Origin: Proteromonas lacertae
Taxonomy: Eukaryota; Sar; Bigyra; Opalinata; Proteromonadidae
NCBI GenBank assembly: GCA_002245135.1
Contig: NGBS01000881.1
Span: 1-64,000 of the forward strand
Direction of reading: 5' to 3'
DNA: 64,000 nt
Shown here piece by piece: positions 4,264 through 20,275 of this stretch. A model generated the notes under the pieces. That model worked only from the letters and a program-made list of their open reading frames with translations. It was not told the DNA's origin and searched no databases. Both the position numbers and the translations under genes were made by a program. Position 1 is the stretch's first letter, and the number at the start of each line of letters is the position of its first letter.

Positions 4264-4298
4264 TTAAAAAATATATTCGTTTCAAAACAACAGAAACA

Positions 4299-4436
4299 AT
4301 GTCTTTAATAGCTTATTTGATGCTAATATATTATTCATTCGGATATAAATCTAATCAAGTTCATAGTGTTAGTGAAAGAATGATAGAGAGTATAGATTAT
4401 TAAGATTATTAATTCTTAAATAGATTTTAATTCATC
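4299..4436 (+). pseudogene. Possible signal-peptide-encoding 5' fragment of the gene at 19270-20275, cut off by the element
   Basis: ATG 4299 opens a 34-residue frame beginning MSLIAYLMLIYYSFGYKS, which looks like a signal peptide, and stops at TAA 4401-4403. It lies on the same strand as, and immediately left of, the element whose right flank carries a membrane-protein gene lacking a signal peptide. The left target duplication TTCATC (4431-4436) is in frame with the right-hand coding frame when joined across the insertion (DFNSS then HLKMGKRQ). Stops and a frame change between 4403 and 4420 mean the joined gene is not intact as read. This is inference; it could equally be noncoding sequence. 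Confidence 0.4.
4431..4436. repeat. Left target-site duplication (TTCATC)
   Basis: TTCATC abuts the left terminal inverted repeat and is repeated exactly at 19254-19259 just outside the right one. Six base pairs is the duplication length known for Polinton/Maverick integration. Confidence 0.75.
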
Positions 4437-4618
4437 ATATATATAATAGAGGAAAAGAAAAACCATGGATAGTTTTAAAATAAACAATTTACAGTAAAAT
4501 CAATGTTTTTAGTTACATTTTATAAACAATTTATATACAATTTGTAAACAATTTTACTAATTTGTAGTCAATTTATGCTGATTTGTAGTCAATTTTAATC
4601 GATTAAACTCTCCAATTT
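4437..4618 (+). repeat. Left terminal inverted repeat of the element
   Basis: It matches the reverse complement of 19075-19253 with scattered mismatches and small indels. Shared blocks include AGAAAAACCATGGATAGTTT, AAATCAATGTTTTT, CATTTTATAAACAATTT and TTTTAATCGATTAAACT. Near-repeats of the form AAACAATTTTACTAATTTGT lie inside it and are more regular in the right copy. Confidence 0.9.
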
Positions 4619-4985
4619 TTAAATCATTCTATATATATCATCCGTAAGGTTTTCTGTAGAGATGACTACCCTGCTGGGGGGTAGAACAGCTCACTACATC
4701 TAGAGGTTCACTAAAATCTAGAGGTTCACTAAAAAATTCTAAAAACTCTATAATTGATTCATCTCACTATAAATCTGTAGAGATGATTAATATACATATT
4801 TTTTTTATATTTTTTTTAATATATTTTGTTAATAATAAAAGATACATCAAAAACATCAAGAAATTCTCAAATGAATCATGATTCATTAAATAATATAATA
4901 ATTTTGATACATAATTGATTTTGCATCTAGAGTTCATTCAGCATTTTCCTGACATTTTCATAAAAAAAATTAATTTTAAAAAATA
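4619..4985. other. Left subterminal noncoding region with short direct repeats and a GC-rich motif
   Basis: This stretch has no gene. TCTAGAGGTTCACTAAAA occurs twice head to tail (4699-4716, 4717-4734). CTGTAGAGATGA occurs at 4654-4665 and 4775-4786, the second preceded by TCATCTC to form a small hairpin. A G-rich block (CTGCTGGGGGGTAGAACAG, about 4671-4689) is mirrored near the right end by a similar inverted block (about 18967-18990). Conserved inverted blocks just inside both ends could be protein-binding or replication-start sites. Confidence 0.6.
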
Positions 4986-5781
4986 ATGAGTCATCAAGTG
5001 ATATATTTATCAGACACTGATATTGATAGTGATAGTGATAGTAATAGTACTCAAAGTGATAAAGACTTTGAAAATCGATTAAAAAACATCAGTAGCATAC
5101 CTAATTATAAAGTTAGGGATATATGTACCAAATGTGCATTAATGGATCAGTCTAAAGGTATTAAAAGACGTAGAATCAGTATAATTTATTACTCTGATAT
5201 ATATATATAATTTTATTAGGTGCACCAGTAACAGGTCGTCCTTTTAATCCATTTAATCCATATCGATTATATATCAAAATCGATAATCCTAATGATGAAC
5301 CTCCAAAAGCAGAAGAAAAATCACCGATGTATATTTTATATTATTTATATATATATATATTTATTTATAGTTATTCACCAACAACACCAACTGATCATGT
5401 TAATGATTTAATCAATTTAACAGTAGGTGATGAACATCGTGAATCAATGTATACTTTATATATATATTTATTATTTATAGATATTCACCAGTACCACCAC
5501 CATCTTCATCTGATACCTTAACCTACGAAGAAATCAAAAAGCTTCGTAATGAAAGCTTAGTAGGTAAAAGGATCAGAGATGGTAGAAGAAGAGCCAAGGC
5601 AGAAAGAGAAGAGCTCAATTTCAAAGTAGCTAGTGACATGTCACTAGCTATGGACCTCCAGCGTTATTACGACACAATGTTCAAAAAACAAGAGTTAGAA
5701 GAAAAGATGATGAAGAAGCACAGATTAAATCCTAAAGTGTTAAAGAGTATCATCAAGAAGGTATTAAAAGATAAAAACTAA
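4986..5781 (+). CDS. Spliced proline-rich, basic element protein of unknown function (4 exons, 226 aa)
   Basis: Exons are 4986-5178, 5220-5328, 5371-5448 and 5481-5781. The introns are 41, 42 and 32 nt, all GTAT...TAG, and joining the exons gives one open frame of 227 codons. The N-terminus has an Asp/Ser run (DTDIDSDSDSNS) and one CTKC pair. The middle exons encode Pro-rich segments that each splice into IYSP (PIYSPTTP, SIYSPVPP), suggesting exon duplication. The C-terminal ~100 residues are highly basic and helical (KRIRDGRRRAKAEREE, then Lys-rich to the end). It is the first gene inside the left end and reads inward. No family is recognised; the basic C-terminus could bind nucleic acid. 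Confidence 0.75.
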
Positions 5782-5792
5782 TTAGAAAAAGT

Positions 5793-6431
5793 TGTTGTTC
5801 CCCGTATGGCGGAAATCCCCGTATGGCGGAAATCTATATTGCAGAATGATTCAATCAAAACTAATATGATATTCATGATGTTCGGAGTTAGTTATTAACA
5901 AATATATAGTTAGTTTGTCATATGACCTACATCTGTGATATACTTTTTTATGAACTTCATTATTATCAATATTAAACTAATTTTTGTATATTTTCTATTT
6001 TAATGTATCAGTCACTACTACAGTCTAAAATACATTATCTGATATGAATAGAATACAATAATTTTAATGTTAAGGTAGTAAAAAAGGAAATTAAAGAGTA
6101 GGCTTGAGCGAGGCTTGAACTTATTTTTTCTTTTTTCTTTTTTAACCTCCTTAACATTAAAAATAGTGAATTCTATTCATATCAGATAATGTATTTTAGA
6201 CTGTAGTAGTGACTGATACATTATAATAGAAAATATACAAAAATTAGTTTAATATTGATAATAATGAAGTTCATAAAAAAGTATATCACAGATGTAGGTC
6301 ATATGACAAACTAATTATATATTTGTTAATAACTAACTCCGAACATCATGAATATCATATTAGTTTTGATTGAATCATTCTGCAATATAGATTTCCGCCA
6401 TACGGGGATTTCCGCCATACGGGGAACAACA
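5793..6431. mobile_element. 639-bp foldback (MITE-like) element nested in the large element
   Basis: Two 283-bp arms (5793-6075 and 6149-6431) are near-perfect inverted repeats around a 73-bp loop. Each arm tip holds a tandem pair of CCCCGTATGGCGGAAAT, much more GC-rich than the surroundings. Outermost bases are TGTTGTTCCCC / GGGGAACAACA, flanked by AAAGT on both sides (5788-5792, 6432-6436), a possible 5-bp target duplication; a 3-bp AAG reading with 12-bp tips is also possible. No ORF is present. A non-autonomous transposon is the simplest reading. Because it lies between two element genes, a regulatory or replication role is also possible. Confidence 0.85.
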
Positions 6432-6629
6432 AAAGTAATGTTATTATTAACACTTTTTACTATTGATTGAATTGTTTTTTGTTATTTCTTTTTTTCTATT
6501 TAAAATAAATAATAATAACATAATCCAATAAAATAAACGAAAATATCAAGTGTTTTTCAACACTATAATTTTCGATAAGATTTTCATTATGAATTTTCTT
6601 TTCATTATTTTTTTTATAAAAAAAGAAAA

Positions 6630-7082
6630 ATGAATTCAAGTGAAGAAAAGTATTGTAATCGATGTAAACATATTAAACCTATAAATGACTTTATGAATGA
6701 AAGAGGTGAAATATCAATTCTTTGTAATAGATGTAAAGAATATAGGAGATATTATCAGACAAAATATAGAAGTAAAAAACAGAATGAAATTAGAAGCATA
6801 TCAGTTGATGCTGATGATAAATTTAAATGTCGTTCTTGTGCTCGTTTCTTTAAAAATAAGTATAGATCAAAAGAAATTGCATTATGTAAAGTGTGTTTTA
6901 AATTCCTATTAAAATACTATAAAAATAGAGATAAATATTTAGGTAAACAAGTATATAGAAATGGTAAAATAAGATGTTTTATATGTAGAAAAATGAAATC
7001 TAAGTTAAAAATACATAAGATTAATATATGTAAGAAATGTATAAGACATCATGAACATAAACTAGAAAAGAAACAAATATAA
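6630..7082 (+). CDS. Three-unit zinc-ribbon protein (150 aa)
   Basis: Cys pairs form three ribbon-like units: CNRC with CNRC (residues ~9-37), CRSC with CKVC (~67-89) and CFIC with CKKC (~117-136), each Cx2C-x(11-20)-Cx2C. Lys/Arg-rich spacers (RYYQTKYRSKKQ) separate the units. The first unit has the F-x(n)-C-x2-C-(K/R)-x-(Y/R) ending shared by the other element ribbons, and the whole order matches the proteins at 17439-18047 and 18464-18964. It is likely a nucleic-acid-binding or protein-interaction protein encoded by the element. Its first 12 residues, just after the foldback, are acidic and polar. The start ATG 6630 follows an A-rich leader. Confidence 0.8.
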   Translation: MNSSEEKYCNRCKHIKPINDFMNERGEISILCNRCKEYRRYYQTKYRSKKQNEIRSISVDADDKFKCRSCARFFKNKYRSKEIALCKVCFKFLLKYYKNRDKYLGKQVYRNGKIRCFICRKMKSKLKIHKINICKKCIRHHEHKLEKKQI

Positions 7083-7424
7083 TAATCATAAAAAATGATA
7101 AATATATATATTATATCATTGTTTTATTCGGGTTATTCTTACAAAATATAAGAGTATTAAGTGCATTTATATATATATATATATATATATGATGAATAAA
7201 TCAACAAATACATCAATAATGAATTCATTGAAAGATGTATCAAGTACAATAAATTCACTTAAAAATGAGATTTATATAGTTTTGATTTTTTAGTTAATCA
7301 TATATAAAGATTATATTTGATGATATTTTAAATGGATTATACTCAACTATGTATGATTAACAAAAATACATAATATAAAGTCAAAACTCGATAGAAGAAT
7401 AAAGTAGTATTAAAAATATGATGA
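7083..7424. other. Convergent intergenic region with AT microsatellite and a possible 35-codon ORF
   Basis: It separates the zinc-ribbon gene and the polymerase 3' end, which converge here. It has an (AT)n run at about 7170-7189 and a small ORF (7187-7291) starting MMNKSTNTSIMNSLKD. I see no support for its translation. Nothing else is recognised. Confidence 0.4.
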
Positions 7425-10262
7425 TTAATCATTTTTATGTGTTATAATAATCATGTTTTTTAATGTTAATATATTTTCTTTTTTGTATCCATATGGCACT
7501 GTATTGTAATTATCTAAGAATAATCTCTTATCATCATAATATGTTAATCCTGTTTTGTTTTGAAATGTTGTATATACATTATGATGAATTGATTTAATTT
7601 GATAAACTTCATATTTTTGTGTATCTTTAATACCATTTACAAAATCATTATATACATCATAAGTAATTTTTCTTGATACTTTTATGTTTATTCCTTTACA
7701 TCTATTATCTGTTGTATTTTTTTGATTTTCATCATTTACGCATTCTTTTTCATATATATAACACTTTGATTTTAGTCCTATAAACTTTGTTATAACATAT
7801 AGGTTTTTATTATTCTTATCCTGCTCTTCAAATTTTAATCGATTCAATGTACCTGGATGAACTGCTCTATGTATATCTAACTTATAATTATCTAAATAGG
7901 GATTTTTTAAATTACTTCCATCAATCCAATTATTAAATATAGGATCTTCCAAATCTCTAAATATATCTTCAGTTTCGACAGAAAATAATAGACTATCAGT
8001 ATCAGTCATACATAATGTCAACTTATTTGATCCATATTTTTTATCTAATACATCATACCAATATTTCTGCATTTTTAGTTTTGATAACTCTAGAATAACC
8101 ATGCCAATTTGTATAGGCTTATTAATTACATATGCTTTTTTATAAAAGTGAGCTATACGTAAGTCTCCTTCAATAATTATAAAGTCTTTAAACCATGGAT
8201 CACTTGCAGCATTAATCATTTGATCTTCATTAGTAATTAAAGAAATGTTACTTCTCTTTTCAACACGTTCCATAAATTTACCGTACAAACTATTCATTAA
8301 TTTCTTTATATAGTCTGCAGTAGTATTTTGATTGTTTTCTTTTGCTTTTACTCTTTTTTCTACCATTGTATTAATATATTTACCCATATATAGACCTTCA
8401 GTAAATCTCATTATTCTATGTACTTTACTAACTTTATAGCCATGTTCAACTGCAAACTTCAAATTTTGATAGTGTATTACATACTTTTCTTTAGGATATA
8501 AATCAGTTATTAATTTTTCAGTACAATGATAAGTCCCTCTTTCTTTATTTATAATTCCTAAAATTTCGGCTCTTTCAGTTTGTAAGTCGGATAACCATTC
8601 TTTAGGTATTTTCTTCCTTTCAGGTAATAATGGGTATTCTTTAAACTTGTCTTGTAGTTCTATAGGTAATTCTATATCTACTTCTAATATATATCCATAA
8701 TCATTATTTGTAAGTCTGTCTTCATCCATTTCTTCATAATAAGGTAAATCAAGTATAGATTCAAATGATATAGATTCTGGTTCAATAAACTCAAAATCTT
8801 TTAAAGGCATTTTGCAAGATGCCATAACTGAGGGATATAAGGAATTATAATCTTGATATAGTAAATACTTATTTCGCAGAGATTTATCATAATTCTTCAT
8901 AAACTTATTATTAGCTTCTTCTTTACGTTTTCCAATGTATGATAAACCACCATATAAGCCTTTTAAAATAAAATCATAATAACTAGGTTCACAGAACAGT
9001 TGCAGTTCCACATCTGTTACATGCAAGAATAAATCAAGTGATAAACTTGGTAAAGATATATACCAGCATGGATCAATATTAAATGTATTAAATATATTTT
9101 CTCTAAAATCATTAAAAACTGATTGCAATATATAAACATCAATTTGTAGATAAAACAAATTGTATTCTCTTATGTTTTTGAAATTGAATATTTCATTTAC
9201 TTCCATAGCAAATCTATATTCTTCTGGTTTTATTGATTCACCACTTAATTTTGATGTAAAGTCATTTATTGAAAGATCACTAAATTTTTCATCAAATGAT
9301 TCAAGGGATGTCATATGCTCATATGGGAAATAATTCTTTTGAAGTAGATACTTTTCAATTATTTCATCATTAATTTGTTTTCCATTATAATATTTAAAAT
9401 TATCATATATACTTTTGAATTTTATTCTTTTATCATTATTTAATTCTGCTGTGATTTTTAGATCATTTGTTAAATTTGCTAATGAACCAGATAAAAATAA
9501 ATAACTGTCAATGAATATTAAATTTTTATATTCAATGCACTTATAATTTTCATCTGTGTTAGGAATTATATTTATTACAGTTTTACTTTCATTTGCTATC
9601 TTTGCTAATTCTCTGATTATAAAATGTTGATCATACTTCATTGCATTATGAGCAATTACTGGTATTTTTAAATTTTTTATATCTATATTTAACTTTTCCT
9701 TAGAACAAATTGAAGCAATATAGTTACCAGTGAAATGATCATGATGTAAAACCTTTATATGATCAATATTATTAAATTCTTTACTACAAAAATCACATTT
9801 GTTTTTCTGATTATGTATATCTAATGTGACAGGGTTCTTATCATATAGTTTAGGATTAGCTAGTCTGTAGTTATACACCATTAATATTTGATTGTAAATG
9901 TTTATAATATCATCTACAAATTCTTTTTTAATATTATGATCATAATTTGATTTACTCTTAATTATTGTGCAACATTCAATATCAGGAATTTTACTATCAA
10001 CATATATACAATAAGAGTATAATTGATGTCTAGACATAATTGATTTTTCTGTTTTAGTCAACTCTCTTTTATCAATTTCCACATCTGTATTAGTTTTATC
10101 ATCAATATTGTCATTCTTATATCTTTTCATATTTAATTCATTTTCATATGGTTGAAAATATGTTTCTGTATCATAGTATAATGTTACAGGAATCATTTGT
10201 AAATGTGTCCAATGCTTAAATTTAATTGTTGATCTATTTGTATCATGTATACTAGGAAATAA
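7425..10262 (-). CDS. polB: Protein-primed type B DNA polymerase (Polinton/Maverick type), exonuclease and polymerase part
   Basis: From ATG 10196 the 923 residues carry every core motif. ExoI is YYDTET (Asp 9, Glu 11), ExoII is HNAMKYDQH (~185) and ExoIII is YLQIDVYIL (~352). PolA is DYNSLYPS (~449), PolB is KKLMNSLYG (~634) and PolC is DTDS (~732). Between PolA and PolB is the insertion typical of protein-primed enzymes (YVIHYQNLKFAVEHGY, then a KRVKAKEN helix). It should replicate the linear element from its ends by protein priming with 3'-5' proofreading. The frame stays open upstream of ATG 10196 for 22 codons (to 10262) and meets the preceding ORF at a single in-frame TGA (10263-10265). 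The upstream codons read TIKFKHW, a segment normally found just before ExoI, so the two ORFs are one ancestral gene. Confidence 0.93.
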   Translation of the reverse strand, partial: LFPSIHDTNRSTIKFKHWTHLQMIPVTLYYDTETYFQPYENELNMKRYKNDNIDDKTNTDVEIDKRELTKTEKSIMSRHQLYSYCIYVDSKIPDIECCTIIKSKSNYDHNIKKEFVDDIINIYNQILMVYNYRLANPKLYDKNPVTLDIHNQKNKCDFCSKEFNNIDHIKVLHHDHFTGNYIASICSKEKLNIDIKNLKIPVIAHNAMKYDQHFIIRELAKIANESKTVINIIPNTDENYKCIEYKNLIFIDSYLFLSGSLANLTNDLKITAELNNDKRIKFKSIYDNFKYYNGKQINDEIIEKYLLQKNYFPYEHMTSLESFDEKFSDLSINDFTSKLSGESIKPEEYRFAMEVNEIFNFKNIREYNLFYLQIDVYILQSVFNDFRENIFNTFNIDPCWYISLPSLSLDLFLHVTDVELQLFCEPSYYDFILKGLYGGLSYIGKRKEEANNKFMKNYDKSLRNKYLLYQDYNSLYPSVMASCKMPLKDFEFIEPESISFESILDLPYYEEMDEDRLTNNDYGYILEVDIELPIELQDKFKEYPLLPERKKIPKEWLSDLQTERAEILGIINKERGTYHCTEKLITDLYPKEKYVIHYQNLKFAVEHGYKVSKVHRIMRFTEGLYMGKYINTMVEKRVKAKENNQNTTADYIKKLMNSLYGKFMERVEKRSNISLITNEDQMINAASDPWFKDFIIIEGDLRIAHFYKKAYVINKPIQIGMVILELSKLKMQKYWYDVLDKKYGSNKLTLCMTDTDSLLFSVETEDIFRDLEDPIFNNWIDGSNLKNPYLDNYKLDIHRAVHPGTLNRLKFEEQDKNNKNLYVITKFIGLKSKCYIYEKECVNDENQKNTTDNRCKGINIKVSRKITYDVYNDFVNGIKDTQKYEVYQIKSIHHNVYTTFQNKTGLTYYDDKRLFLDNYNTVPYGYKKENILTLKNMIIITHKND

Positions 10263-11597
10263 TCATAATACATTTTCTTTATCTTGACAATCATGATTAA
10301 CGTGAGTGATATACATATTTAAATCATAGATATAGAATAAACAGTATGGACATACATAAATTAAATTTCTTGATTTTGCATTTATCATTCTTCTAAATAA
10401 ATCATCTAAAGAGCTTATAGCTACATAATGTGAACCATAATCATTCTTTAATAGTAACAGGTTGACTATTCTATATTTTAATTCTTTACTCTGTTTGGAT
10501 AGATGAATGGGAATAAATGTTTCTTTATTATTATCATTTCTATCTATATCTATGTAAAATATATTTACATTCAATTGATTTCTTTTTTCAAATTCATTTA
10601 TTGATTTATAATCAGTTGCATCTACTGGATAATTAAGCATGTTCCATTCATGTTTCTTTTCAAATGATATGTAGTTTTCAATATGATCTTTGTTATATTT
10701 AAATTTACAACTATATAATGCTGTTAAAACTGCCCACTTAAAGCATTGATTGTCTTCATTCATTAGATTAATAAAGCATTTATATCCTTGATATTTAGGA
10801 GGTAATGGAATAAAGCAACTGCCACGAATTACTCTAAACTTTGTAATATATATTTCAACCGTATTAACTCTAAGAAAAGATAAACCACTTTGTGGATGAT
10901 TTGAATCTTGTTCTTCAGATATTTGATTAAAAATACTCTCTAATATTTGAGTAATTTCTACTTTGCTACTAAACTTTGTTATTTGACATATTCGAGATCT
11001 ACTGTATATAGATATTTCATCTTCTTCACTTTTAGATTCGTCAGGTGTATATATTGATCTAACATTGATGAAAAATTTAATCATTTGCATATCATTTGCC
11101 AAACTTTGTAACGTATCAACAATATCGTAGTTTTTAATAAAATCTGAGTAACATTCTTGAGGTGTTATATATGTTTTATTAAATTGATATAATAATTTTC
11201 TTGTTACTCCTTCTGATGATTTTTGTGATTCTAATGAATTTCTTATTCTGTTGCTAATATTTTGACTTGGTTTAGGAATAGAAGTTTTCATTAATCCTCC
11301 ATATATATTATAAGTATTATCATTATTAATGCTTCTTTTTTTGCTTATTTGAGATGTTACTTGATTTAATGAAGTTGATGATATTTTTCTTTTATTAATG
11401 CTTGTTTCTTGATGATTTAAAACAATTGTTTGGGCTAGAGGAGGTGGAGGTTGTTGTTGAATTACTTCACTATCATTACAACTGTTACCACTATGATGAT
11501 GATAATGATGTTTTTTATGATGCTTTCTTTTCTTTTCATTTAAAGTTGTTTTTATTATTTTCAAAAATGCCTTTAATAACTTTTTTTCTTTTCCCAT
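10263..11597 (-). CDS. N-terminal region of the element polymerase, with Cys/His protease-like signature and a zinc finger
   Basis: These 444 residues end at the TGA that separates them, in frame, from the polymerase. The start is basic and His-rich (KKRKHHKKHHYHHH). At ~280 comes NEDNQCFKWAVLTALYS and at ~388 GSHYVAI, a Cys...His layout like papain/OTU-type folds that often precedes Maverick polymerases. The C-terminal ~30 residues hold a CPYC...H...H...C finger. In the family this region and the polymerase form one polypeptide. Here it is either a separate protein, the N-terminus of a UGA read-through product, or half of a gene with a nonsense mutation. The protease reading is inference; catalytic geometry cannot be checked from sequence alone. 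Confidence 0.8.
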   Translation of the reverse strand: MGKEKKLLKAFLKIIKTTLNEKKRKHHKKHHYHHHSGNSCNDSEVIQQQPPPPLAQTIVLNHQETSINKRKISSTSLNQVTSQISKKRSINNDNTYNIYGGLMKTSIPKPSQNISNRIRNSLESQKSSEGVTRKLLYQFNKTYITPQECYSDFIKNYDIVDTLQSLANDMQMIKFFINVRSIYTPDESKSEEDEISIYSRSRICQITKFSSKVEITQILESIFNQISEEQDSNHPQSGLSFLRVNTVEIYITKFRVIRGSCFIPLPPKYQGYKCFINLMNEDNQCFKWAVLTALYSCKFKYNKDHIENYISFEKKHEWNMLNYPVDATDYKSINEFEKRNQLNVNIFYIDIDRNDNNKETFIPIHLSKQSKELKYRIVNLLLLKNDYGSHYVAISSLDDLFRRMINAKSRNLIYVCPYCLFYIYDLNMYITHVNHDCQDKENVL

Positions 11598-11776
11598 ATT
11601 GCATATGAATATCGTTAAATATAAAAGAAATATAAAAAAATAAGATCAAAATAATTTATAATATATGATTGGTTATAGATTTTAATTGGTTAAACATATG
11701 TTTTAAATTCTTTTCTATTTTCATTTTTCTGATAGAATATAACTAACTTTATAATATCATTTCTCTTTCATAAATA

Positions 11777-12529
11777 ATGAGTAATGAAACACCTTACGAA
11801 GCTGCACCTGATGTTGTATTATGTGAATACTTAAAAAGTCCAAAACTATGTAACAAATGGATTATAAAAGGAACAGTAGAGAAGATTGAAGTTCATAAGA
11901 ATGAAAAAAGTCAATATGTTTTAATAACATTTGCTCATGATTTAAATCATCAAGTTGTTATAAATAATGGAAAAGATTGTGAAACTTATTCTGCGGATGA
12001 AGTTAAATATGTTTTAAAACAAATTTATGATAGAAAAGAGAATGATTTTATAGAAAAAATCATTCGCAATTATTTGATTAGTGTTGGTTGTCGTGAGTCT
12101 GAGTATGGTATTAAATACTTTCATAATTTCAACAGTATCATGGTTTGGAGCAACAGTAATTATTTAATACCTCCAAATGTTGATAAAGGTTCTAAAATTG
12201 CAGTTAGTGTAGTTGATTATCAGATTTCTATTAAAAATAATGGTCAGTCTAACTTTGTTAATCATCGTGTTTGTAGTGACATAGTTAGTTATGATGAGAA
12301 TCCTGATTTAGTAACAACAATAAGAAAGTCTAATGAGAAGAAAGCTAAGATAGTTATGAAAGATAAAGATTCTTTTCATACACCTGTTAGAGTTAAAAAG
12401 AATAACATAAAAAAGAATGATATTATAACTACTCATCAACCTTTTAAAAAGACTATAACTGGTGTAACAAATGTATCTAAAGTAATTAACTACATAAAAG
12501 ATGATGATATATCTGATGATGAACCATAA
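11777..12529 (+). CDS. Element protein A of a paralogous pair, possible OB-fold (250 aa)
   Basis: It aligns by eye with the protein at 15914-16687. Both share a K-W-(I/V)-(I/V)-K-G-x-(I/V) start of a beta-strand run (KWIIKGTVEKI vs KWVVKGVIKNI), a Y-x(3)-I/T-F/R-x(2)-D stretch and IKY...(V/L)W in the middle. Alternating strands and a glycine after the first strand suggest an OB-like barrel, which would suit a single-stranded DNA-binding protein for a protein-primed replicon. The C-terminal ~60 residues are Lys/Asn-rich and probably disordered (KKNNIKKND) and end in acidic DDDISDDEP. Acidic C-terminal tails are typical of phage and bacterial SSBs. It is transcribed divergently from the polymerase. 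The OB call is inference; no family was recognised outright. Confidence 0.65.
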   Translation: MSNETPYEAAPDVVLCEYLKSPKLCNKWIIKGTVEKIEVHKNEKSQYVLITFAHDLNHQVVINNGKDCETYSADEVKYVLKQIYDRKENDFIEKIIRNYLISVGCRESEYGIKYFHNFNSIMVWSNSNYLIPPNVDKGSKIAVSVVDYQISIKNNGQSNFVNHRVCSDIVSYDENPDLVTTIRKSNEKKAKIVMKDKDSFHTPVRVKKNNIKKNDIITTHQPFKKTITGVTNVSKVINYIKDDDISDDEP

Positions 12530-12667
12530 AAGTCTTAATAATAGCATTAATATTATTCTAATTATTGTGCTCTTAATTACATAAATAAAAATAAATTGTT
12601 TATATTGGGTATATATAGCAAACATATATATATGTATAATTAATATCAATAATTAATTATTTCATTA

Positions 12668-13094
12668 TTAATTAAGTTTTACAACTTTATTATTCGAAGA
12701 ATCATAAGTATTATTCTTAAGTTCTTCATATTTTCTCTTTTTCTTATCTCTGCATTCATTACATGATTTATAGTGAACGCCATTAGGTTTTATATCAAAA
12801 CAATCAACTGATTTATTCTTATTGCATGTTGAGCAGTGAAGTATATTATCTTCTTCTAATGTAGATTCTTCTTGTTCATGGTTCAACACATTTAGCATTC
12901 CATTCAGGATCATCTTCATATTCTTCTATTACTGAATAAATACCATCCAATAAATCTTTAAAAACACCTAATACACATGTTTTAATTAACATTATATTAG
13001 AATCATTATTTTCTTCTAACGTTGCAGGTAGTGCATTCACAACTTCTTTCTCAGTGTCATTTGTGCTAGGCACATCTGAATTACTTAGTGACAT
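12668..13094 (-). CDS. Single zinc-ribbon protein split by one frameshift
   Basis: ATG 13094 opens a frame of about 70 residues that ends at a TGA (about 12876-12878). One base later the sequence continues in another frame with an acidic stretch (EQEESTLEED) and a zinc ribbon (HCSTCNKNKSVDCF...SCNECRDKKKRKYEE), ending at TAA 12668. The ribbon matches its element paralogues. Residues on both sides of the break look coding. It could be a sequencing or mutational indel, two overlapping genes (a second ATG lies at 12919), or a +1 frameshift at CCA-TGA-A. The N-terminal half (LIKTCVLGVFKDLLDGIYSV) is probably helical and unlike the other ribbons. Confidence 0.6.
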
Positions 13095-13283
13095 TCTGTT
13101 TTTTAAAATACTCAAAATCTCAAAGAAAACTATAAATAATAAAATAAAGACAAAATTGTTAACATAAACATATGAATACTATTTGCTAATAATATACCCC
13201 ACCAAAAAGAAGAAGAAGAAATAATAACTCTTTTATATTTTTAATTTATATCAATCTTATTTTTATGCAATAACATTATAATT

Positions 13284-13685
13284 CTAATATTTAATACCAT
13301 TTAATATTATTTTGTTCATAATGATGTTAAGAATTGGATGTCTTTCTAAATGGGTCTTTCCTTCTTTTGATTTTAACCATTCAATATAATTGTTATAATT
13401 AGGGAATACTCTCTTTTCATCTCTTACATATACGCTTGGTTTATAATCATGTATCATTAAAGTATATCTTATTTCATCATATTGTGGAACTAAAGTTTGA
13501 TGACACAAATAACGTTTTTCATTACATTCTTTTGATACTGATTTATTAGAGGTGTCAGGTATTGAGCTTATTTTATGATTAAAATAGAGATAAAATCTAC
13601 AATTATTGCATATATGTTTATCTAAAAAGTCATCATTATTACTGAATGATTTAGATAAAAAATTAAAGTCAATTGAATTTGACAT
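13284..13685 (-). CDS. Unknown element protein, 133 aa
   Basis: It runs ATG 13685 to TAG 13284. It has a CNNC pair near residue 25, then cysteines in KECNEK and YLCHQ, possibly one degenerate zinc site. The C-terminal half (YVRDEKRVFPNYNNYIEWLK) looks folded rather than disordered. It sits in the minus-strand run of small element genes between two ribbon genes. No family is recognised. Confidence 0.55.
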   Translation of the reverse strand: MSNSIDFNFLSKSFSNNDDFLDKHICNNCRFYLYFNHKISSIPDTSNKSVSKECNEKRYLCHQTLVPQYDEIRYTLMIHDYKPSVYVRDEKRVFPNYNNYIEWLKSKEGKTHLERHPILNIIMNKIILNGIKY

Positions 13686-13909
13686 AATGATATATAATAT
13701 AAATTTTGCAAAAGAATATGATAGAAAAATATGAACTGAATAATTAATATAACTTAATTAACATCAGATTCACTTCACACTCTATCCCATTCTCTAAAAG
13801 CTAAAGCTTCTAATCAAATCATCACATATATTATGATATATTGATTATTTAAACCATCTTAATTGTTACATATACATTCTCATCATGTTATTTCTATCAT
13901 TACATATAT

Positions 13910-14149
13910 CTAAATATTTAATTCATTATAATATAATTGATTTAATAATTCTTGTAAATTCATCAAAAAAATATTACTATTGGGTGAATTTGTTTTTATT
14001 CCATATTTACATATATCATTGATCCATTTATACAAATTTAAATATAAATTCGATACTTGTTCCTCTAATATATTACAAGTTATATTTTTAATGCTAATAT
14101 CAATAGGTGATATATTATCATATTCATATATTTTTATCAATTTGTTCAT
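13910..14149 (-). CDS. Small helical element protein, 79 aa
   Basis: It runs from ATG 14149. The predicted peptide is mostly Leu/Ile/Asn with heptad-like hydrophobics (NLYLNLYKWINDICKYGI; NLQELLNQLYYNELN). It shares the strand and spacing of its neighbours. Composition in this AT-rich DNA is weak evidence of coding, so confidence is modest. Confidence 0.4.
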   Translation of the reverse strand: MNKLIKIYEYDNISPIDISIKNITCNILEEQVSNLYLNLYKWINDICKYGIKTNSPNSNIFLMNLQELLNQLYYNELNI

Positions 14150-14238
14150 GATATTAGAATGAAGTATATTTGTCCCTATTTAAAGAAAAAAGAAATATTA
14201 ATTACTAAGATAATTGAGTAAATTATATGTAACTGTTA

Positions 14239-15012
14239 CTAATTTCTTTTAACCACTTTATACTGATTTAAATATCTTATATTTTTATCTTTTCTTCTAC
14301 ATTTTATACATTTTGAAAATAACTCATTAGTTTTGTTATATATACCCATTTCTTCATAATTTCTTATTTCACCACAATAAGAACACCTAGTCATTCCTTC
14401 TGGAAGTATTTCAGGTAATGTTCTGCCATCAAGTTTGTTTTTATTATACTTCTTATTAGTATTATATTTATTTGCTTTAGAAATTCTGCAAGTTGGACAA
14501 GTTGAATAAAGCTTGTTTGCTTTCATATTAATGCCCATTATACTAATATGATATATCATATGACAAGAAGAACATGATGCATATTCATTAGTATTGTTAT
14601 TTCCATTGATTATATTATTATGTAATTGATTTGCAATACTTTCATTTTTTATTCTTTCTGTCTTTGTCTTGTAATATTTTCTGTTACGGTTTTGACAAGC
14701 TTTACATATTTTACCATATTCACCATTTTGTCTGACAGCTATTTGATGTTTACTTACTATTTTATTACAGCTTGAACATTTAATACAGTTTTCATTATTA
14801 TGAGCATTTATTTTCAAAGATTCATAGATTATTTGATTTGGTTTATTTACAACATTATACTGATAATTATGAAAAGCACAATCTTTGTCAATATGCATAT
14901 CTTTAATAATGTCTCTATCACTATCATTGTCACTACTACTATCACTACTACTATCACTATTCTTAATACAGTCTTTCAACAGTATATATAATTCATTTAT
15001 TATGCTTTTCAT
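14239..15012 (-). CDS. Three-unit zinc-ribbon protein with Ser/Asp tract (257 aa)
   Basis: After a short N-terminal helix comes a Ser/Asp tract (SDSSSDSSSDNDSDRD). Three ribbons follow: CSSC...CKAC (~80-106), CSSC...CPTC (~146-173) and CSYC...CIKC (~211-238). The second and third contain a MGI(N/Y)-x-K-x-(N)-(K/E)-L segment between Cys pairs that is also present in both full ribbons of the next gene (15112-15756), so these two genes form a subfamily and probably arose by duplication. The Ser/Asp tract could be a phosphorylation target. DNA or RNA binding by the ribbons is inferred. Confidence 0.78.
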   Translation of the reverse strand: MKSIINELYILLKDCIKNSDSSSDSSSDNDSDRDIIKDMHIDKDCAFHNYQYNVVNKPNQIIYESLKINAHNNENCIKCSSCNKIVSKHQIAVRQNGEYGKICKACQNRNRKYYKTKTERIKNESIANQLHNNIINGNNNTNEYASCSSCHMIYHISIMGINMKANKLYSTCPTCRISKANKYNTNKKYNKNKLDGRTLPEILPEGMTRCSYCGEIRNYEEMGIYNKTNELFSKCIKCRRKDKNIRYLNQYKVVKRN

Positions 15013-15111
15013 TATTTAACTGTTTTAGTAATTTATTAATAATATAAGAAATTTGAAAATAAAAATATTTCCCTAAAATATAATAAATAAACAATAGAAT
15101 AATAATATAAC

Positions 15112-15756
15112 TTAAATATTAATTATATTATTAAGTAAATCATATATTTCATTTAAAAAACTGTCACTAAATACAATTAATAATTCATTATCTCTAGTTA
15201 TTCTTGGTATAATTTTTTCTTCTTCAATTACATTCATTTTATTTATAATATTTGTAACATATTTATAACATTTTATGCACATACTGCCTTTTATATTTTT
15301 TCGTTTACAATTATGCATCTCATCACATAACAGACATTTTGATTTAATATAGTCTTCTTTTTTATCTATTTTTCTTCCATTCTTTTTATTCATCTTAATA
15401 CTATTCTTTGATTTATCTCTACACTCTATGCAGCATTGATAAACATTTCCTGTAACTTTATTTATACCCATTTCTTCATAAAGTTTTGATTTTTTGCATA
15501 AGATACATTTTGCATAACCTGGTTCTATTTTATCTATTTTATATTTAAGGTTAACGTTAGATTTATCTCTACATTTAGGGCAAATATTATAATATTTGTT
15601 CCATCTATTCTTACCCATTTCCCAATATTGATATAGTGCTTTACATCTTGAGCATTTGATATATTCATCTGCTTTTGTATAGTAGGGTACTTCAATACCA
15701 TAAAATTCATTATTAATTGAAATTATATCATTATTATTGACATTTTGAGAACTCAT
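15112..15756 (-). CDS. Three-unit zinc-ribbon protein (214 aa)
   Basis: The units are CSRC...CPKC (~33-61), CILC...CIEC (~80-108) and a shorter CLLC...CIKC (~135-156). The MGKNRWNKYYN and MGINKVTGNVYQ segments between Cys pairs link it to the gene at 14239-15012. The last ~50 residues lack cysteines and are acidic/hydrophobic (ELLIVFSDSFLNEIYDLLNN). It lies 99 bp downstream of nothing on its own strand but 99 bp upstream of its paralogue, so the pair could share a transcript. Confidence 0.78.
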   Translation of the reverse strand: MSSQNVNNNDIISINNEFYGIEVPYYTKADEYIKCSRCKALYQYWEMGKNRWNKYYNICPKCRDKSNVNLKYKIDKIEPGYAKCILCKKSKLYEEMGINKVTGNVYQCCIECRDKSKNSIKMNKKNGRKIDKKEDYIKSKCLLCDEMHNCKRKNIKGSMCIKCYKYVTNIINKMNVIEEEKIIPRITRDNELLIVFSDSFLNEIYDLLNNIINI

Positions 15757-15913
15757 TATTAATTCACTTAGAATATAAAAAATAAAACATGCAGATATTT
15801 AGAATAACAATACATCGATTTGCACATTGATTATTGGTTGTTTGCAATTTAGATATTAAAAATATAAATAATAAATCATTTACTTTTTTCTCTATATTAT
15901 ACAATTAATTAAT

Positions 15914-16687
15914 ATGCCTGATATGATAACTCATATATTAAGACCGAGTAGTTTAAATAGAAAATGGGTGGTAAAAGGTGTTATAAAAAACATTATTGAA
16001 GATGAAGATGATGATAAATATACTATTGCTATTAGAGTTGATAAAGACTTTAGACTTATTTATTGGAATTTATCTGAGTATGTTGAACTTAAAAGAAACC
16101 TATATGTCAAAGAGTTAGAAGATACTGAAGATTATCATGGAAATTATTTTGTAAGAGATATTGTTTGTGATTGGTTTAAAGGTCAAGGTAAAAGTGTTCC
16201 AGCAACAATCAAAATAAAATATGGATTTGATACTTTTATATTATGGAAAGATCAATTATCTTTTCATGATATCAAAGGTGAAATGAGTATTTATGATCGA
16301 ATATACTATGAATTAATTGATACATATTTAGAAGTAAAACATAATGAAGTTAAAGATATAGCATATGTATATGTAAAACACAAATTATTTGAAGATAATT
16401 TCTCTGCTTATGATGATGATAAATATTTACTTGAAGATTTAAAATATTATCCAAAAGATATTGAAGAAATAATTGAAGATACATGTATAAAATGTGGAAG
16501 AAACATGAAAGGGGATGAATCCTATTCACCTCAATATGCTTCTGTCAAATATGGCAAAGGTTCATTAAATAAAAGACATAAAAGAAAATTTGATTTAAAA
16601 AAGTTATCTAAAATTAATAAAAAGTTTAAAAAAGATCATGAAAATGATGATATTCTATTTCATTTAGATGATTGGGAACTTGATTAA
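15914..16687 (+). CDS. Element protein B of the paralogous pair, with extra Cys pair (257 aa)
   Basis: Homologous to the protein at 11777-12529 over the first ~150 residues (KWVVKGVIKNI, then IKYGFDTFILW against IKYFHNFNSIMVW). Downstream it has an acidic middle (YDDDKYLLEDLKYYPKDIEE), one CIKC pair at ~194 and a Lys-rich stretch (KRHKRKFDLKKLSKINKK), ending LDDWELD. As in its paralogue, a basic low-complexity region precedes an acidic end. Both paralogues are on the plus strand while their neighbours are on the minus strand. A single-stranded DNA-binding or terminal-protein-type role is possible but unproven. Confidence 0.65.
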   Translation: MPDMITHILRPSSLNRKWVVKGVIKNIIEDEDDDKYTIAIRVDKDFRLIYWNLSEYVELKRNLYVKELEDTEDYHGNYFVRDIVCDWFKGQGKSVPATIKIKYGFDTFILWKDQLSFHDIKGEMSIYDRIYYELIDTYLEVKHNEVKDIAYVYVKHKLFEDNFSAYDDDKYLLEDLKYYPKDIEEIIEDTCIKCGRNMKGDESYSPQYASVKYGKGSLNKRHKRKFDLKKLSKINKKFKKDHENDDILFHLDDWELD

Positions 16688-16823
16688 AACTATATTGGAT
16701 AATATAATACTAAAAAGTATAAACTGACTTTAAAATGTTATAAATAATATTTATTTTGGGAAATGAAAATAACTATTAGCACAACATAATAATAATAATA
16801 AGACTAATTAATTGAAACATTAA

Positions 16824-17207
16824 TTAATGATATAATCCATACATTACTTTATCCAAGTCCAATCCAAATTTTTCTTTTATATAATTTTTTGCTTTTAAAT
16901 CATGCATTGCAATATATCTATCCATTAGTGCATCAAATTCTTCTGGATCCTCACTATAAATGAATCCTTTATCTAATCCATTTCTTACACGTATATTATG
17001 TCTTCTTCTTTTTTCTCTTATTTTTTCATCTTTAATATGTTTCAACATTTCATTATATCTCTGTAGATCAGCTGTTGATTTAGATTGCACTTGTAGCTCG
17101 TTTGACTGAGAAAATATTTTTCTTTTAAGTGATTCAAATATTGTGTAAAACCATAATAAAGGCTTATAATATGATTCAAGTGAAGATATATAATTTGGAT
17201 TATGCAT
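16824..17207 (-). CDS. Unknown helical element protein, 127 aa
   Basis: The nearest ATG is at 17207 (MHNPNYISSLESYY). The frame is open further upstream to ~17282 and encodes a hydrophobic stretch (VLFYIFFNFIYSIV), but without an ATG, so a spliced or longer start is possible. The centre is basic and helical (HIKDEKIREKRRRHNIRVRN), followed by acidic helices (SEDPEEFDALMDRYIAMH). It is more balanced in composition than noncoding frames here. No family is recognised. Confidence 0.55.
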   Translation of the reverse strand: MHNPNYISSLESYYKPLLWFYTIFESLKRKIFSQSNELQVQSKSTADLQRYNEMLKHIKDEKIREKRRRHNIRVRNGLDKGFIYSEDPEEFDALMDRYIAMHDLKAKNYIKEKFGLDLDKVMYGLYH

Positions 17208-17438
17208 TTTTGATACAATAGAATAAATAAAATTGAAGAAAATATAGAATAATACTTTTTCTGTATTATACAAATGCTTCAAAAATGATTTTACCCAATA
17301 AAATAAAACATAGTATGTATTATTTTTTCATTCTCTATATTATTCTCTATATATATGATTTTACTCAACCATAGTCAATCAACATCTTGTATCTACAGTA
17401 TTTAATTTATAAGATGAATTAATAGATCATATAGGAGG

Positions 17439-18047
17439 TTAATTGCATAAATCATCAATGTCATCATTTTCTCCACATTTTGATTCACTCTGATCTATCT
17501 GAAGAGTGAATTTTTGTTGATTACTATCTTTTATATTTGATATATTTTTAGAAGAATTATTCATGTTATTAGATTCTTTTTTGATAGTTTTTTTACTAAG
17601 TGTATATAAATAATGTTTTACACATTTTTTACACTTATTAGTATATTCCATCTTTGATTTGTGTTTTATTTTTCTGCAGATATAACATCTTTGTTCACCA
17701 CCACTTAGTTCTTCATTAAAATGTCTTTTTCTATTATATAAATATTTTTGTTGAAATTTAAAACATATTTTACATAGATCTTTTATAACAAATGAATTAT
17801 ATTTATCATTAAAACATCCATCACAATTAACACATCTAAATTTATCAGATAAATCATTTTTTATTTTTCTATTATTAGAAAAATATATTCTTTTATATTT
17901 TCTGCATTTGCTACACATGTGGTATTCTTTACCTTTATCATTCTTAAAATCATTCATAGGAAAATTATATTTGCATCTTGAACATTTTTTTTCTCTTTTA
18001 ACTAAATTATATGGTAATGTATTTGAATTATTTTCAAGATTTGGCAT
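17439..18047 (-). CDS. Three-unit zinc-ribbon protein (about 202 aa)
   Basis: The first ATG is at 18047 (MPNLENNSNTLPYN). The units are CSRC...CSKC, CVNC...CKIC and CYIC...CKKC, in the same order and spacing as the gene at 6630-7082, to which it is closest (both end the middle unit with CK(V/I)CFKF followed by KYYKNRDK or KYLYNRKR). The C-terminal ~50 residues are a Ser/Asn-rich acidic tail absent from the 6630 protein. The two genes sit near opposite ends of the element in inverted orientation. Confidence 0.78.
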   Translation of the reverse strand: MPNLENNSNTLPYNLVKREKKCSRCKYNFPMNDFKNDKGKEYHMCSKCRKYKRIYFSNNRKIKNDLSDKFRCVNCDGCFNDKYNSFVIKDLCKICFKFQQKYLYNRKRHFNEELSGGEQRCYICRKIKHKSKMEYTNKCKKCVKHYLYTLSKKTIKKESNNMNNSSKNISNIKDSNQQKFTLQIDQSESKCGENDDIDDLCN

Positions 18048-18112
18048 TCTTTTCTTCAATATCTAAAAACAGCAAGAAAATTAAAAATGTAAATTTAATA
18101 GAAATTTAATTG

Positions 18113-18357
18113 TAAACTCATACATACACACAATTACAATGCATCAAAGTAATGAAGAATATATGGTATAAACATATATAAATGATATTATGAGAAATTA
18201 ATTTTCTTACTAAATATTGAAATTTTTCTACTTCATCAAAATATTAAATCTAGTTCTTTTGACTTGATATTTTCAATAATAAACTCATACATATACACAA
18301 TTACAATGCATCAAAGTAATGAAGAATATATGGTATAAACATATATAAATGATACTA
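18113..18357. repeat. Two 78-bp direct repeats, 167-bp period
   Basis: About 78 bp starting TAAACTCATACATA at 18113 recurs starting at 18280 with one or two substitutions; both copies contain ATTACAATGCATCAAAGTAA. The repeats fill most of the 400-bp gap (18060-18463) between two ribbon genes. No gene is visible in the gap. They may be a segmental duplication of a promoter or leader. Confidence 0.85.
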
Positions 18358-18463
18358 GATATTAAAGTAGAAATGATGAATTATTCATATAAATATATAT
18401 ACACCTAAATTCTAATATAGTAAGATTTACCCATATAAACATTAATTATATATTTAACAAAAA

Positions 18464-18964
18464 TTATAATGCATGTTTATTTAAAGTTTGATGATATTTT
18501 TTCACACAAATATTACACATGTTTTGATATGGCATTATTTCTTTCTTTCTTAAATGTCCACAATGATAACATCTCATCTCTTTATCATTAGTTAACACTT
18601 CATTCTTATACAATTTTTTATATATTTTTATGCTTAATTTAAATCTAAAACATCCTTTACATAAGAATGTCATAACTTTATCATTTAATATCTCTTTACC
18701 TAAGTACTCATTATTATAAAACATTAAACAACATCTGCACTGAAATACCTCATGCATTATATTTAATATCGATTTCTTTTTCTTTAATATAGTCTTATAA
18801 GACCTGCAATATTCTCTGCAATGGTTACACTGATGAAAATATTCATTTGTTTTAGGATTTTTAGTAAAATCAGTTAAACAAAACATTTTCTTACACTTAC
18901 CACACTTAGCAAATCTTGTTCTATCAATTTCATCAGTAGAAAAGTAGATAAATAGAGTGTGTTC
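18464..18964 (-). CDS. Three-unit zinc-ribbon protein, start uncertain
   Basis: The first in-frame ATG (18886) would lose half of the first ribbon: the codons just upstream read AKCGKCKK and restore the Cys pair needed for CGKC...CNHC. The frame is open back to 18964 without an ATG, preceded by TAG. Either a short 5' exon is spliced on (an AG lies at the edge of the open stretch) or the start is non-ATG. Later units are CRCC...CKGC and CYHC...CNIC, so the order equals that of 6630-7082 and 17439-18047. This is the outermost gene at the right end. Confidence 0.7.
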   Translation of the reverse strand, partial: EHTLFIYFSTDEIDRTRFAKCGKCKKMFCLTDFTKNPKTNEYFHQCNHCREYCRSYKTILKKKKSILNIMHEVFQCRCCLMFYNNEYLGKEILNDKVMTFLCKGCFRFKLSIKIYKKLYKNEVLTNDKEMRCYHCGHLRKKEIMPYQNMCNICVKKYHQTLNKHAL

Positions 18965-19074
18965 CTATCTGTTCCTACCCCCGCCGTAGCTATCTGTAGA
19001 GAAAAAACTTATAGAGAGAGAGAGAGTGATACATTCACTTTAGCAAGTTAATATTTTAACTGTTTTAAAATATT
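18965..19074. other. Right subterminal noncoding region
   Basis: It contains a C-rich block (GTTCCTACCCCCGCCGTAGC, about 18971-18990) that mirrors the G-rich block inside the left end, a CTGTAGAG shared with the left side, and a (GA)n run at about 19011-19027. No gene is seen. Confidence 0.55.
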
Positions 19075-19253
19075 AAATTGGATAGTTTAATCGATTAAAA
19101 TTGACTACAAATCAGCAAAATTGTTTACAAAATTAGTAAAATTGTTTACAAAATTAGTAAAATTGTTTATAAAATGTGAACAAAAACATTGATTTTACTA
19201 TAAATTGTTTATTTTTAAACTATCCATGGTTTTTCTTATCCTCTATTATATAT
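19075..19253 (-). repeat. Right terminal inverted repeat of the element, with 21-bp iterons
   Basis: It is the inverted counterpart of 4437-4618. It contains AAAATTGTTTACAAAATTAGT twice in tandem (19117-19137, 19138-19158) and a degenerate third unit (19159 on). Tandem units in a terminal repeat suggest binding sites for a replication or transposition protein. The left copy has a more degraded version. Confidence 0.9.
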
Positions 19254-19259
19254 TTCATC
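19254..19259. repeat. Right target-site duplication (TTCATC)
   Basis: It is an exact copy of 4431-4436, directly outside the right terminal repeat. Confidence 0.75.
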
Positions 19260-19269
19260 ACATTTAAAA

Positions 19270-20275
19270 ATGGGAAAAAGACAGATACTGAAAGAAAATC
19301 TATATTCTAATTTTCGATATAAGTTAGATCTTTCAGATTTATATTTCTCGTTTGATAAATCATCTTTATTAAAAGCATATGGTACTATATATCCAGTTCC
19401 TCAGAGTAATTGTGAATCAGATACAAATATTAAAACAATTTCTTGCATTGTTTCAAAAATCAGTATTTCTGCTGATGGATTTGGTGGAACAAATCCATTA
19501 ACTTCATTTGACTGTAGCGGTACTATTATAAATGCTGAAGCAAAATTTGCATACCCAAATTTTTTTTCTTGTGCTATTTTTGATAGTAATGATAATATGG
19601 TTTCTTTTGGTTCAATAAAAACAAATTATTATGATAAAGACACAGATAATGATCATCATAATGGTGACAGTGATGATCATGGTGGTAGTGGAGGTAAATC
19701 GTTTGCTTCTGGTGGATATTATATAGTATTCATAGTAATAGCAATAATTATGTGCAGTATTGCTTGTTGTTGTTATAGACGATTTCATAAAAGGAATAAA
19801 GTGAATAGTGAAGTTCAAATGGCTTCTCAATCGATAGTAGGACAGAATCAACAACAACAACCAATAGTAAATGCAATTCCTGTTCAACCTTATCAACCAA
19901 ATGATGATAAGAATAATAATGGCAATGTTCCAGTTCAAGGAATTCCGTATAATCCACAACAACAGCCTTATTATCCTAATCCTAATGGTGAACAACCACA
20001 ACCACAGCTATTTTATCCAAATAGTCAACAACTACAACAACCATATTATTCCCAATCCCAATGATCTACAACAGCCACAAGTGATTTATTATTATATTCC
20101 ATCAGCAGCTGTTGGAACAAGTGAACTACCAATAGGGGTTGATCCTCTGCCAATTGGAGTTCAAACTCCACCAATTTCATCTTCAAATTTAGTTCAGAAT
20201 AATATTGATCCAAATAATTCATCGCATAATAATTATTATCTTCCTTCTTCACAAACAACTCCACCAATACAATAA
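19270..20275 (+). CDS. Membrane protein with Pro/Gln/Tyr-rich tail, probably 5'-truncated by the element (one frameshift)
   Basis: The first ATG lies 10 bp outside the right target duplication. The predicted ectodomain has spaced cysteines matching the protein at 3474-4263, then an Asp/His/Gly linker, a transmembrane helix (YYIVFIVIAIIMCSIACCCY) and a long tail of P, Q, N and Y (QQPYYPNPNGEQPQPQ). Unlike its paralogue it has no signal peptide; a signal-like peptide lies just left of the element (4299). A one-base insertion near 20050 shifts the frame before a TGA at 20062. The repeated PYYPNPN motif places the extra base a few codons upstream of that stop. The tail then continues (LQQPQVIYYYIPSAA) to TAA 20275. 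No known domain. Confidence 0.65.

Follow-up and report, generated by a model that had tools for sequence, protein, structure and literature searches.

Polintons (Mavericks) are called self-synthesising, with polymerase and integrase together on one element. How, then, does a Polinton-like element move that carries the polymerase and no recognisable integrase? The question is raised by an element of ~14.8 kb at positions 4439-19253 of a 64,000-nucleotide stretch of Proteromonas lacertae DNA (GenBank assembly GCA_002245135.1, contig NGBS01000881.1, positions 1 to 64,000; the whole stretch is called the window below), part of a 50.2-Mb assembly of 1181 contigs. A preliminary description, made from the letters of this stretch, had offered two answers: a reduced lineage mobilised in trans, or a new transposition function in one of the unknown genes. 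We found that the missing genes lie, in the same genome, on a second class of elements with the same termini, and these data suggest that the window element is probably one of the two segments of a bipartite Polinton, the one that serves replication, and that its partner mobilises and packages it in trans. The first answer thus fits, in a more specific form than the one in which it was given.

Ends and polymerase of the window element

The element is bounded by a left terminal inverted repeat of 180 bp (4439-4618, forward strand) and a right one of 179 bp (19075-19253, reverse strand), identical at 169 of 183 alignment columns, as expected from the inverted ends of about 180 bp first described. 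The matching TTCATC flanks reported with them were also confirmed: TTCATCA stands at 4431-4437 and again at 19254-19260, which can be parsed as a 7-bp target-site duplication with one extra T at the left or as 6 bp plus AT. Chance agreement of this kind occurred at a frequency of 0.0009 for 6-mers and 0.0003 for 7-mers in random pairs drawn from positions 20-64 kb of the window. Polintons are recognised by terminal inverted repeats (TIRs) and a duplication of the 5-6-bp type, and the window element has both, its duplication being 6-7 bp long.

The catalytic part of a family B DNA polymerase, 923 amino acids (aa) long, is encoded at 7425-10196 on the reverse strand (PF03175, DNA_pol_B_2, E = 1.8e-27). 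A 444-aa open reading frame (ORF) at 10263-11597, also on the reverse strand, shares its frame and is parted from it by a single in-frame TGA; by analogy with the scheme in PMC11071308, this N-terminal part would be a terminal-protein plus vOTU region (TP-vOTU). The element had been credited with a complete protein-primed polymerase, which must be qualified, since in this copy the stop separates the N-terminal part. The stop is not present in the copies on contigs C859 and C101, and on C101 the whole is one ORF of 1382 aa. As PMC11071308 mentions a coral Polinton in which the terminal protein has a gene to itself, a polymerase gene is not necessarily dead because it is split. The ORF of the catalytic part starts with an ATG, and the two parts might conceivably be separate products in the window copy.

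Among the 14 listed ORFs and the two exons of a gene we call gX, a Pfam scan that left out other element ORFs of 60-113 aa gave no integrase, FtsK, protease or capsid match at E up to 1, and the polymerase alone reached a Pfam cut-off. When 15 proteins of the integrase-bearing elements described below and three proteins of a related family (C) were compared by tblastn (E up to 0.05) with window positions 1-22000, only a 33-residue remnant at 7192-7290 was matched; the capsid candidates of those elements have no homologue in the window by sequence. At this level, therefore, the reported lack of integrase, ATPase and capsid motifs is borne out, and by Pfam and partner homologues the window element by itself has no RVE integrase, C5 protease or packaging ATPase.

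The same ends on integrase and capsid elements

A search of the host assembly with the element's left end returned 29 matching rows, and four of the contigs among them, C133, C837, C19 and C1118, also hold weak RVE matches. The elements on these four contigs have the window's inverted repeat, gX and the zinc-ribbon-like gene zr1 (71-75% identical), and then continue with a different gene set. The inverted repeat itself is found on integrase/capsid elements of C1118, C133, C837, C18 and C19; it is 93-98% identical between the window and three partner copies, and 91-97% identical among the partner copies. A foldback insert excepted, the shared DNA at the left extends over 4439-7290 (forward strand), matching C837 2836-5077 at 93.6% and then 82.0%, and at the right over 18932-19253 (reverse strand), matching C1118 19833-20162 at 92.4% over 330 columns. 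Because the left block stops inside a 111-aa gene of the partner, of which 33 codons remain in the window as a truncated remnant (7192-7290, forward strand), we infer that the window's end block came by recombination with a partner segment and that the junction is its scar.

The partner's integrase has 387 aa and matches the rve profile at 2e-4 (22.0 bits, 92 of 102 profile positions), below the curated cut-off of 32.6; a homologue in family C, 40% identical, scores 4.3e-6 and 27.4 bits, also below it. We counted an RVE integrase as present in the window and partner classes together, though its score is below the cut-off. A partner copy of a sister lineage on C1073 encodes an adenain-like C5 protease (Peptidase_C5, 1e-7, 32.3 bits against a cut-off of 21.3), which we likewise credit to the two classes together, and an A32-like ATPase (Pox_A32, 6.7e-4, 19.6 bits, below the cut-off of 22.8) in which a Walker A-like GKTT is seen. 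Further partner genes encode a basic core protein, a 507-aa capsid candidate, a 322-aa protein, two short right-end proteins and an unnamed 925-aa protein. Genes for the polymerase, TP-vOTU, p250 and p257 are all missing from the two near-complete partner elements, on C1118 (bases 1-20162, without the left end) and on C1073 (20 kb), p250 and p257 being the window genes once described as possible OB-folds; these four, the 79-aa ORFs and the 152-aa ORF of the polymerase segment have no match in the partner copies examined.

The second of the two original answers, a new transposition function in one of the unknown proteins, which would make the element autonomous, could appeal to p250, p257 and the zinc-ribbon proteins, which have no accepted family match: NCBIfam and PHROGs searches with four window proteins gave nothing accepted, and p250 and p257 had no match among PDB sequences, searches of which gave nothing useful. 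A 6-7-bp duplication is the product of Polinton RVE integrases, however, and an integrase of this kind is available in trans, encoded by elements that share the window element's termini. Moreover, a homologue of p250 adjoins the integrase gene in family B, indicating that p250 is not a substitute for it. We consider this the least likely of the explanations weighed here.

Several observations concern the partner class itself. The 925-aa protein was considered as a capsid protein and dropped, its long Q/N-rich middle and the 507-aa candidate adjoining the ATPase having made this unlikely. Between C18 and C1118 the capsid candidate is only 61% identical, the 322-aa and two right-end proteins 96-98% and the 925-aa protein 87%, and compared with C1073 the capsid candidates group at 98-100%, 72-74% and 64-65%, a pattern that suggests either the swapping of capsid-gene cassettes or rapid evolution of that gene. 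Six integrases (two of the window's lineage, one of its sister lineage, one of family B and two of family C) have, by eye, an aspartate at the expected third catalytic residue of RVE integrases, normally a glutamate (D78, D141, D178). On C1117 (216-1626 of the stretch read), the DNA that lies past the gX end of the partner copy carries a right-end family gene (~33% identical) together with a homologue, at 46%, of the 133-aa ORF in the window, suggesting a mosaic or nested element. Scans of IMG/VR with the polymerase, an integrase alignment and a capsid-candidate alignment confirmed no relative, and the capsid-candidate profile had no PDB sequence match. Protein databases held 18 homologues of the polymerase, two of the 925-aa protein and seven of the capsid candidate, mostly unnamed assembly proteins without context.

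Separation of the two gene sets

We refer to the window's lineage as A, to its sister lineage as A' and to the more distant families as B and C. Among the matches listed, 16 contigs carry the polymerase segment of A or A' and 34 the integrase/capsid segment, with no contig in common. As a control, the integrase of family B was also found on 73 of the 85 contigs that carry the family-B p250 gene. The gene gX occurs at 46 places on 41 contigs, namely 14 of the 16 polymerase-segment contigs, 20 of the 34 partner contigs and 7 others; C829 and C1116, both with gX, carry family-B genes at other places as well.

The assignment of polymerase contigs relied on p257 (13 contigs, none among the partner contigs), with C859, C1106 and C175 added; DNA was read for C1107 and C101 and for parts of C1106, C859 and C175. 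Contigs C815, C292 and C760, with polymerase matches of 83-90% and A' ends, fell outside the scripted count, and by eye none is among the partner contigs. The partner count dropped the integrase fragments on C15 and C570 (68-70%, beside family-B genes), a second integrase match of 61% on C829, and matches to the 925-aa protein at or below 42% and to the capsid candidate at or below 52%, which were taken as family B; it kept C1116, C255, C1164 and C206, although these are broken. C983 and C987, which have gX and a broken integrase of 62-65%, were under the threshold and uncounted, and neither is a polymerase contig. The counts are lower bounds for the polymerase (best 49 of 545 candidates), the integrase (107 of 384), the 925-aa protein (49 of 226) and the capsid candidate (85 of 532); all candidates were scored for p257 (84 of 84), p250 (146 of 146) and gX (46 of 46).

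The more distant families B and C keep polymerase and integrase together. On the family-B contigs C1083 and C1115, integrase, p250, polymerase, 925-aa protein and capsid candidate follow in the same order within 17 kb (by search coordinates, the ends not being mapped), and on the family-C contigs C448 and C1153 the polymerase and integrase genes are ~1.1-1.2 kb apart, with an ORF of 303 or 307 aa between them.

The split in a sister lineage

The same division is found in lineage A', in which C101 and C175 carry the polymerase segment (protein ~9-10% diverged from the window) and C1073 and C1162 the integrase/capsid segment (integrase ~8-9% diverged from C1118). C101 has the polymerase set and gX, and shares with C1162 a left block at 94% over 606 columns and a right block at 96% over 741 columns; C175 remains 96.7% identical up to the end of the C1162 repeat, and C175:11801-13300 falls outside the element. 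Both repeats of C1162 are present, at a distance of 21.2 kb, and search coordinates place matches to the integrase, the 925-aa protein and the capsid candidate between them. The repeats of A and A' are strongly diverged. Some 60 bases inward of the left repeat, however, the two lineages agree in all 20 bases of window 4681-4700, a possible recognition site.

To compare the lineages, we estimated synonymous divergence (dS) and the ratio of nonsynonymous to synonymous divergence (dN/dS) from the window and C101 for the polymerase segment and from C1118 (C18 for the ATPase) and C1073 for the partner. Seven polymerase-segment genes have a dS of 0.17-0.40 between A and A', with a median of 0.30; for ten partner genes the range is 0.04-0.44 and the median 0.23. 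dN/dS was 0.14-0.40 in all seven of the former, with 0.14 for the polymerase (7425-10196), and 0.11-0.43 in eight of the ten latter, indicating purifying selection between the lineages in 15 of 17 tested genes. Because dS is similar and dN/dS low, the genes of both segments appear to have stayed functional for a similar length of time. Nor does the window element lack conserved coding capacity as a decayed TIR element would, despite its one stop codon in the polymerase gene.

These comparisons bear on whether the element is an ordinary defective copy, derived from a standard Polinton by internal deletion or by rearrangement. The polymerase and p250 module adjoins the integrase gene in family B, so that loss of neighbouring genes could yield the window's set, and the window copy's polymerase gene contains a stop. 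Yet the polymerase set recurs in the A' copy on C101, at 54-94% protein identity and with the low dN/dS ratios just given, which refutes the deletion as it stands; the polymerase-segment genes listed above are unmatched in the partner copies examined. A deletion had been raised in the preliminary description itself and was looked for, and neither a full-length A or A' parent nor any A or A' contig with both gene sets occurs among the matches listed. A defective copy is thus very improbable.

Could the two classes instead be halves of one long element that was split or chimerised in its repeats during assembly? Many of the 1181 contigs stop inside elements, and C1162 has no target duplication, both in line with such an artefact. 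The window copy, however, is edged by both inverted repeats, the target duplication and then non-element DNA on each side, C1162 has its two repeats on either side of integrase and capsid-candidate matches, and both arrangements recur in other copies and in the diverged lineage. We regard an artefact as extremely improbable.

The A' polymerase segment has two further features. A broken copy of the partner's right-end gene, with 96-97% identical DNA, is kept in C101 17015-18155, as though the segment required ~1.2 kb of terminal DNA in cis. Behind the polymerase gene, C101 13490-16956 consists of ~22 copies of a 158-bp tandem repeat, which bring the segment to ~19 kb, near the partner's 21 kb; the array might be length filling for packaging.

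Two segments or a satellite

In the proposed bipartite Polinton, the terminal-protein part would prime on the shared ends and the polymerase would copy both segments, as predicted from its family, with p250, p257 and the zinc-ribbon proteins perhaps assisting or regulating the copying. The partner's integrase would insert both DNAs with a stagger of the 6-bp type, and its protease, ATPase and capsid proteins would package both. Gene contents, shared ends, the split in two sublineages, one target duplication (in the window copy) and purifying selection are established. Mutual dependence of the two segments is what we infer from the sequences.

A number of results weigh against this proposal. 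In the gX block the window is 97.1-97.8% identical to five partner copies, which are 97.8-100% identical to one another (C1117 and C1118 being the same), and in the zr1 block the corresponding values are 86-88% and 88-100%. The outermost DNA therefore fails to separate the two classes, and the zr1 part does separate them. The selection estimates come from one pair per class, and the two right-end partner genes have a dN/dS of ~0.9. Some contigs form near-identical pairs (C1106/C1107, C101/C175 and C1117/C1118) that may represent alleles or duplicates, and C1106 shares the left flank of the window element as well; the number of contigs thus overstates that of independent insertions. Elements are cut off by the ends of many contigs, and of the two copies with both ends visible only the window's has a target duplication, that of C1162 lacking one by eye. 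The stop within the window copy's polymerase gene belongs here as well. The polymerase block of C101 lies between the ends in the orientation opposite to that in the window, which implies one capture of ends or more, the behaviour of a satellite. Finally, this type of polymerase is also made by families B and C, which are unipartite and occur in the same genome, so that the partner may not need the window segment.

The last two points lead to the main rival, in which the window class is a polymerase-carrying parasite with captured ends, and the integrase/capsid element is copied by a polymerase of family B or C, independently of this satellite. Besides the opposite orientations in A and A', the partner gene truncated at the junction and the large number of polymerase copies that families B and C have in the genome would suit it. 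So would the divergences: A and B are 82% identical in the polymerase and 61% in the integrase, while A and A' are ~91% identical in both, and family B is further off in dS, at 0.77-0.92 for the polymerase and 1.0-1.2 for the integrase. A B-like element may have donated the polymerase block once the integrase lineages were already separate, but this is only a hint. Against a satellite, the split is kept in both classes of A and A', with purifying selection in 15 of 17 genes at similar dS, and among the integrase elements of A and A' examined, none with a polymerase of its own was found. In addition, the A and A' repeats already differ strongly, so that a still more distant polymerase acting on A ends would not be the simplest case. 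We therefore consider a satellite unlikely, though it is the alternative to be taken most seriously, and favor the two-segment Polinton. Whether one may go on to speak of a segmented double-stranded DNA virus of the Polinton group, with two obligate segments, the protein-primed polymerase on one and packaging and integration on the other, co-inherited through one lineage split or more and given new ends by recombination, seems to us evenly poised.

Remaining genes and features of the window

Within the left shared block lie gX (4986-5781, forward strand), a gene with short introns whose exon joints were placed by eye and which is present in both segment classes of A and A', and zr1 (6630-7082, forward strand). 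The two zinc-ribbon-like paralogues of zr1 are near the other end on the reverse strand: zr206 (17439-18059) and zr140 (18464-18886), the latter with a homologue (73%) on C1073, where it lies at the left end of that A' integrase segment. Between the two genes are two 86-bp direct repeats, 94% alike (18105-18190 and 18272-18357), in a stretch that is 75-81% alike to a 161-bp repeat pair at C101 923-1241. The foldback insert, 641 bp long with 299-bp arms that are 97% complementary, occupies 5792-6432; it is missing at the same place in C837 and is thus a separate insertion, and its occurrence at other sites in C859 and C685 points to a separate mobile foldback family.

The middle of the element begins with p250 ('OB1'; 11777-12529, forward strand), whose family-B homologue is 69-71% identical, and includes its paralogue p257 ('OB2'; 15914-16687, forward strand); the two are 22% identical, and window p250 matches C101 p257 by tblastn at 1e-4. 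On the reverse strand there follow, from left to right, a small zinc-ribbon-like ORF (12668-12919; 64% identical in C101), a small conserved ORF (12876-13115; 85%), a conserved ORF of 133 aa (13284-13685; 88%), a 79-aa ORF (13910-14149; 54% over its own length within a longer, 279-aa ORF of C101), zinc-ribbon-like proteins of 257 aa (14239-15012) and 214 aa (15112-15756), and a 152-aa ORF (16824-17282; 73%). An Rfam search of window 4000-20000 gave nothing at the gathering threshold, and window 18932-19020, folded as single-stranded DNA, was unremarkable. Beyond the element, a host ORF at 26891-35149 encodes 2752 aa, among them internal repeats that are several hundred residues long and nearly identical; it sits in what appears by eye to be a cluster of large surface-protein-like genes. 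The host DNA is AT-rich, its introns are short and its proteins are rich in N and Q.

Comparison with known systems

The nearest relatives of these elements are Polintons, among them families B and C, with which the window element shares inverted ends, a duplication of the 6-bp type and a polymerase with a long N-terminal part. According to PMC3671162, which lists Polintons of Dictyostelium fasciculatum and a Polysphondylium, the Polinton core consists of PolB, integrase, C5 protease and packaging ATPase, and the two segments together carry the first three of these genes and a candidate for the ATPase (below its Pfam cut-off). The difference is that here the core genes are divided over two separately integrated elements with common ends, and the window element has one of the four.

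Two other systems resemble it in part. Yeast linear killer plasmid pairs are linear, protein-primed DNAs of which one relies on functions of the other, but they are cytoplasmic, do not integrate and have no capsid genes. Non-autonomous TIR transposons (miniature inverted-repeat transposable elements, MITEs) use the integrase of another element via common ends and are usually non-coding or decayed, unlike the window element, which keeps a long gene set including a polymerase absent from the partner copies. If the two-segment Polinton is real, integrase-less Polintons in other genomes may not be dead copies, and the P. lacertae elements would offer a system for telling helper, satellite and segment apart by experiment.

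No bipartite or segmented Polinton was found in the literature searched, which left out most subscription papers, and in the accessible parts of PMC11071308, PMC12142844 and PMC12567637 the words 'bipartite' and 'segmented' concern other viruses; as far as that literature shows, this would be the first bipartite Polinton. Its nearest precedent is the bipartite single-stranded DNA family Bidnaviridae, which, according to PMC4061559, has two linear segments and a Polinton polymerase, segment 2 being proposed to have arisen from segment 1 by gene replacement between kept ends. Bombyx mori bidensovirus is thus like the window lineage in its two linear segments with conserved termini, its Polinton-derived protein-primed polymerase and the same logic of kept ends. 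Bidnaviridae differ in their small single-stranded genomes of 6-6.5 kb, their parvovirus-type capsid and the Polinton morphogenesis genes, described there as lost. The family is marked by that capsid and an S3 helicase, and no helicase or parvovirus capsid appeared above cut-off in the Pfam scans made of the window lineage. If our reading is correct, these elements represent a present-day intermediate for the origin of segmented genomes such as those of Bidnaviridae.

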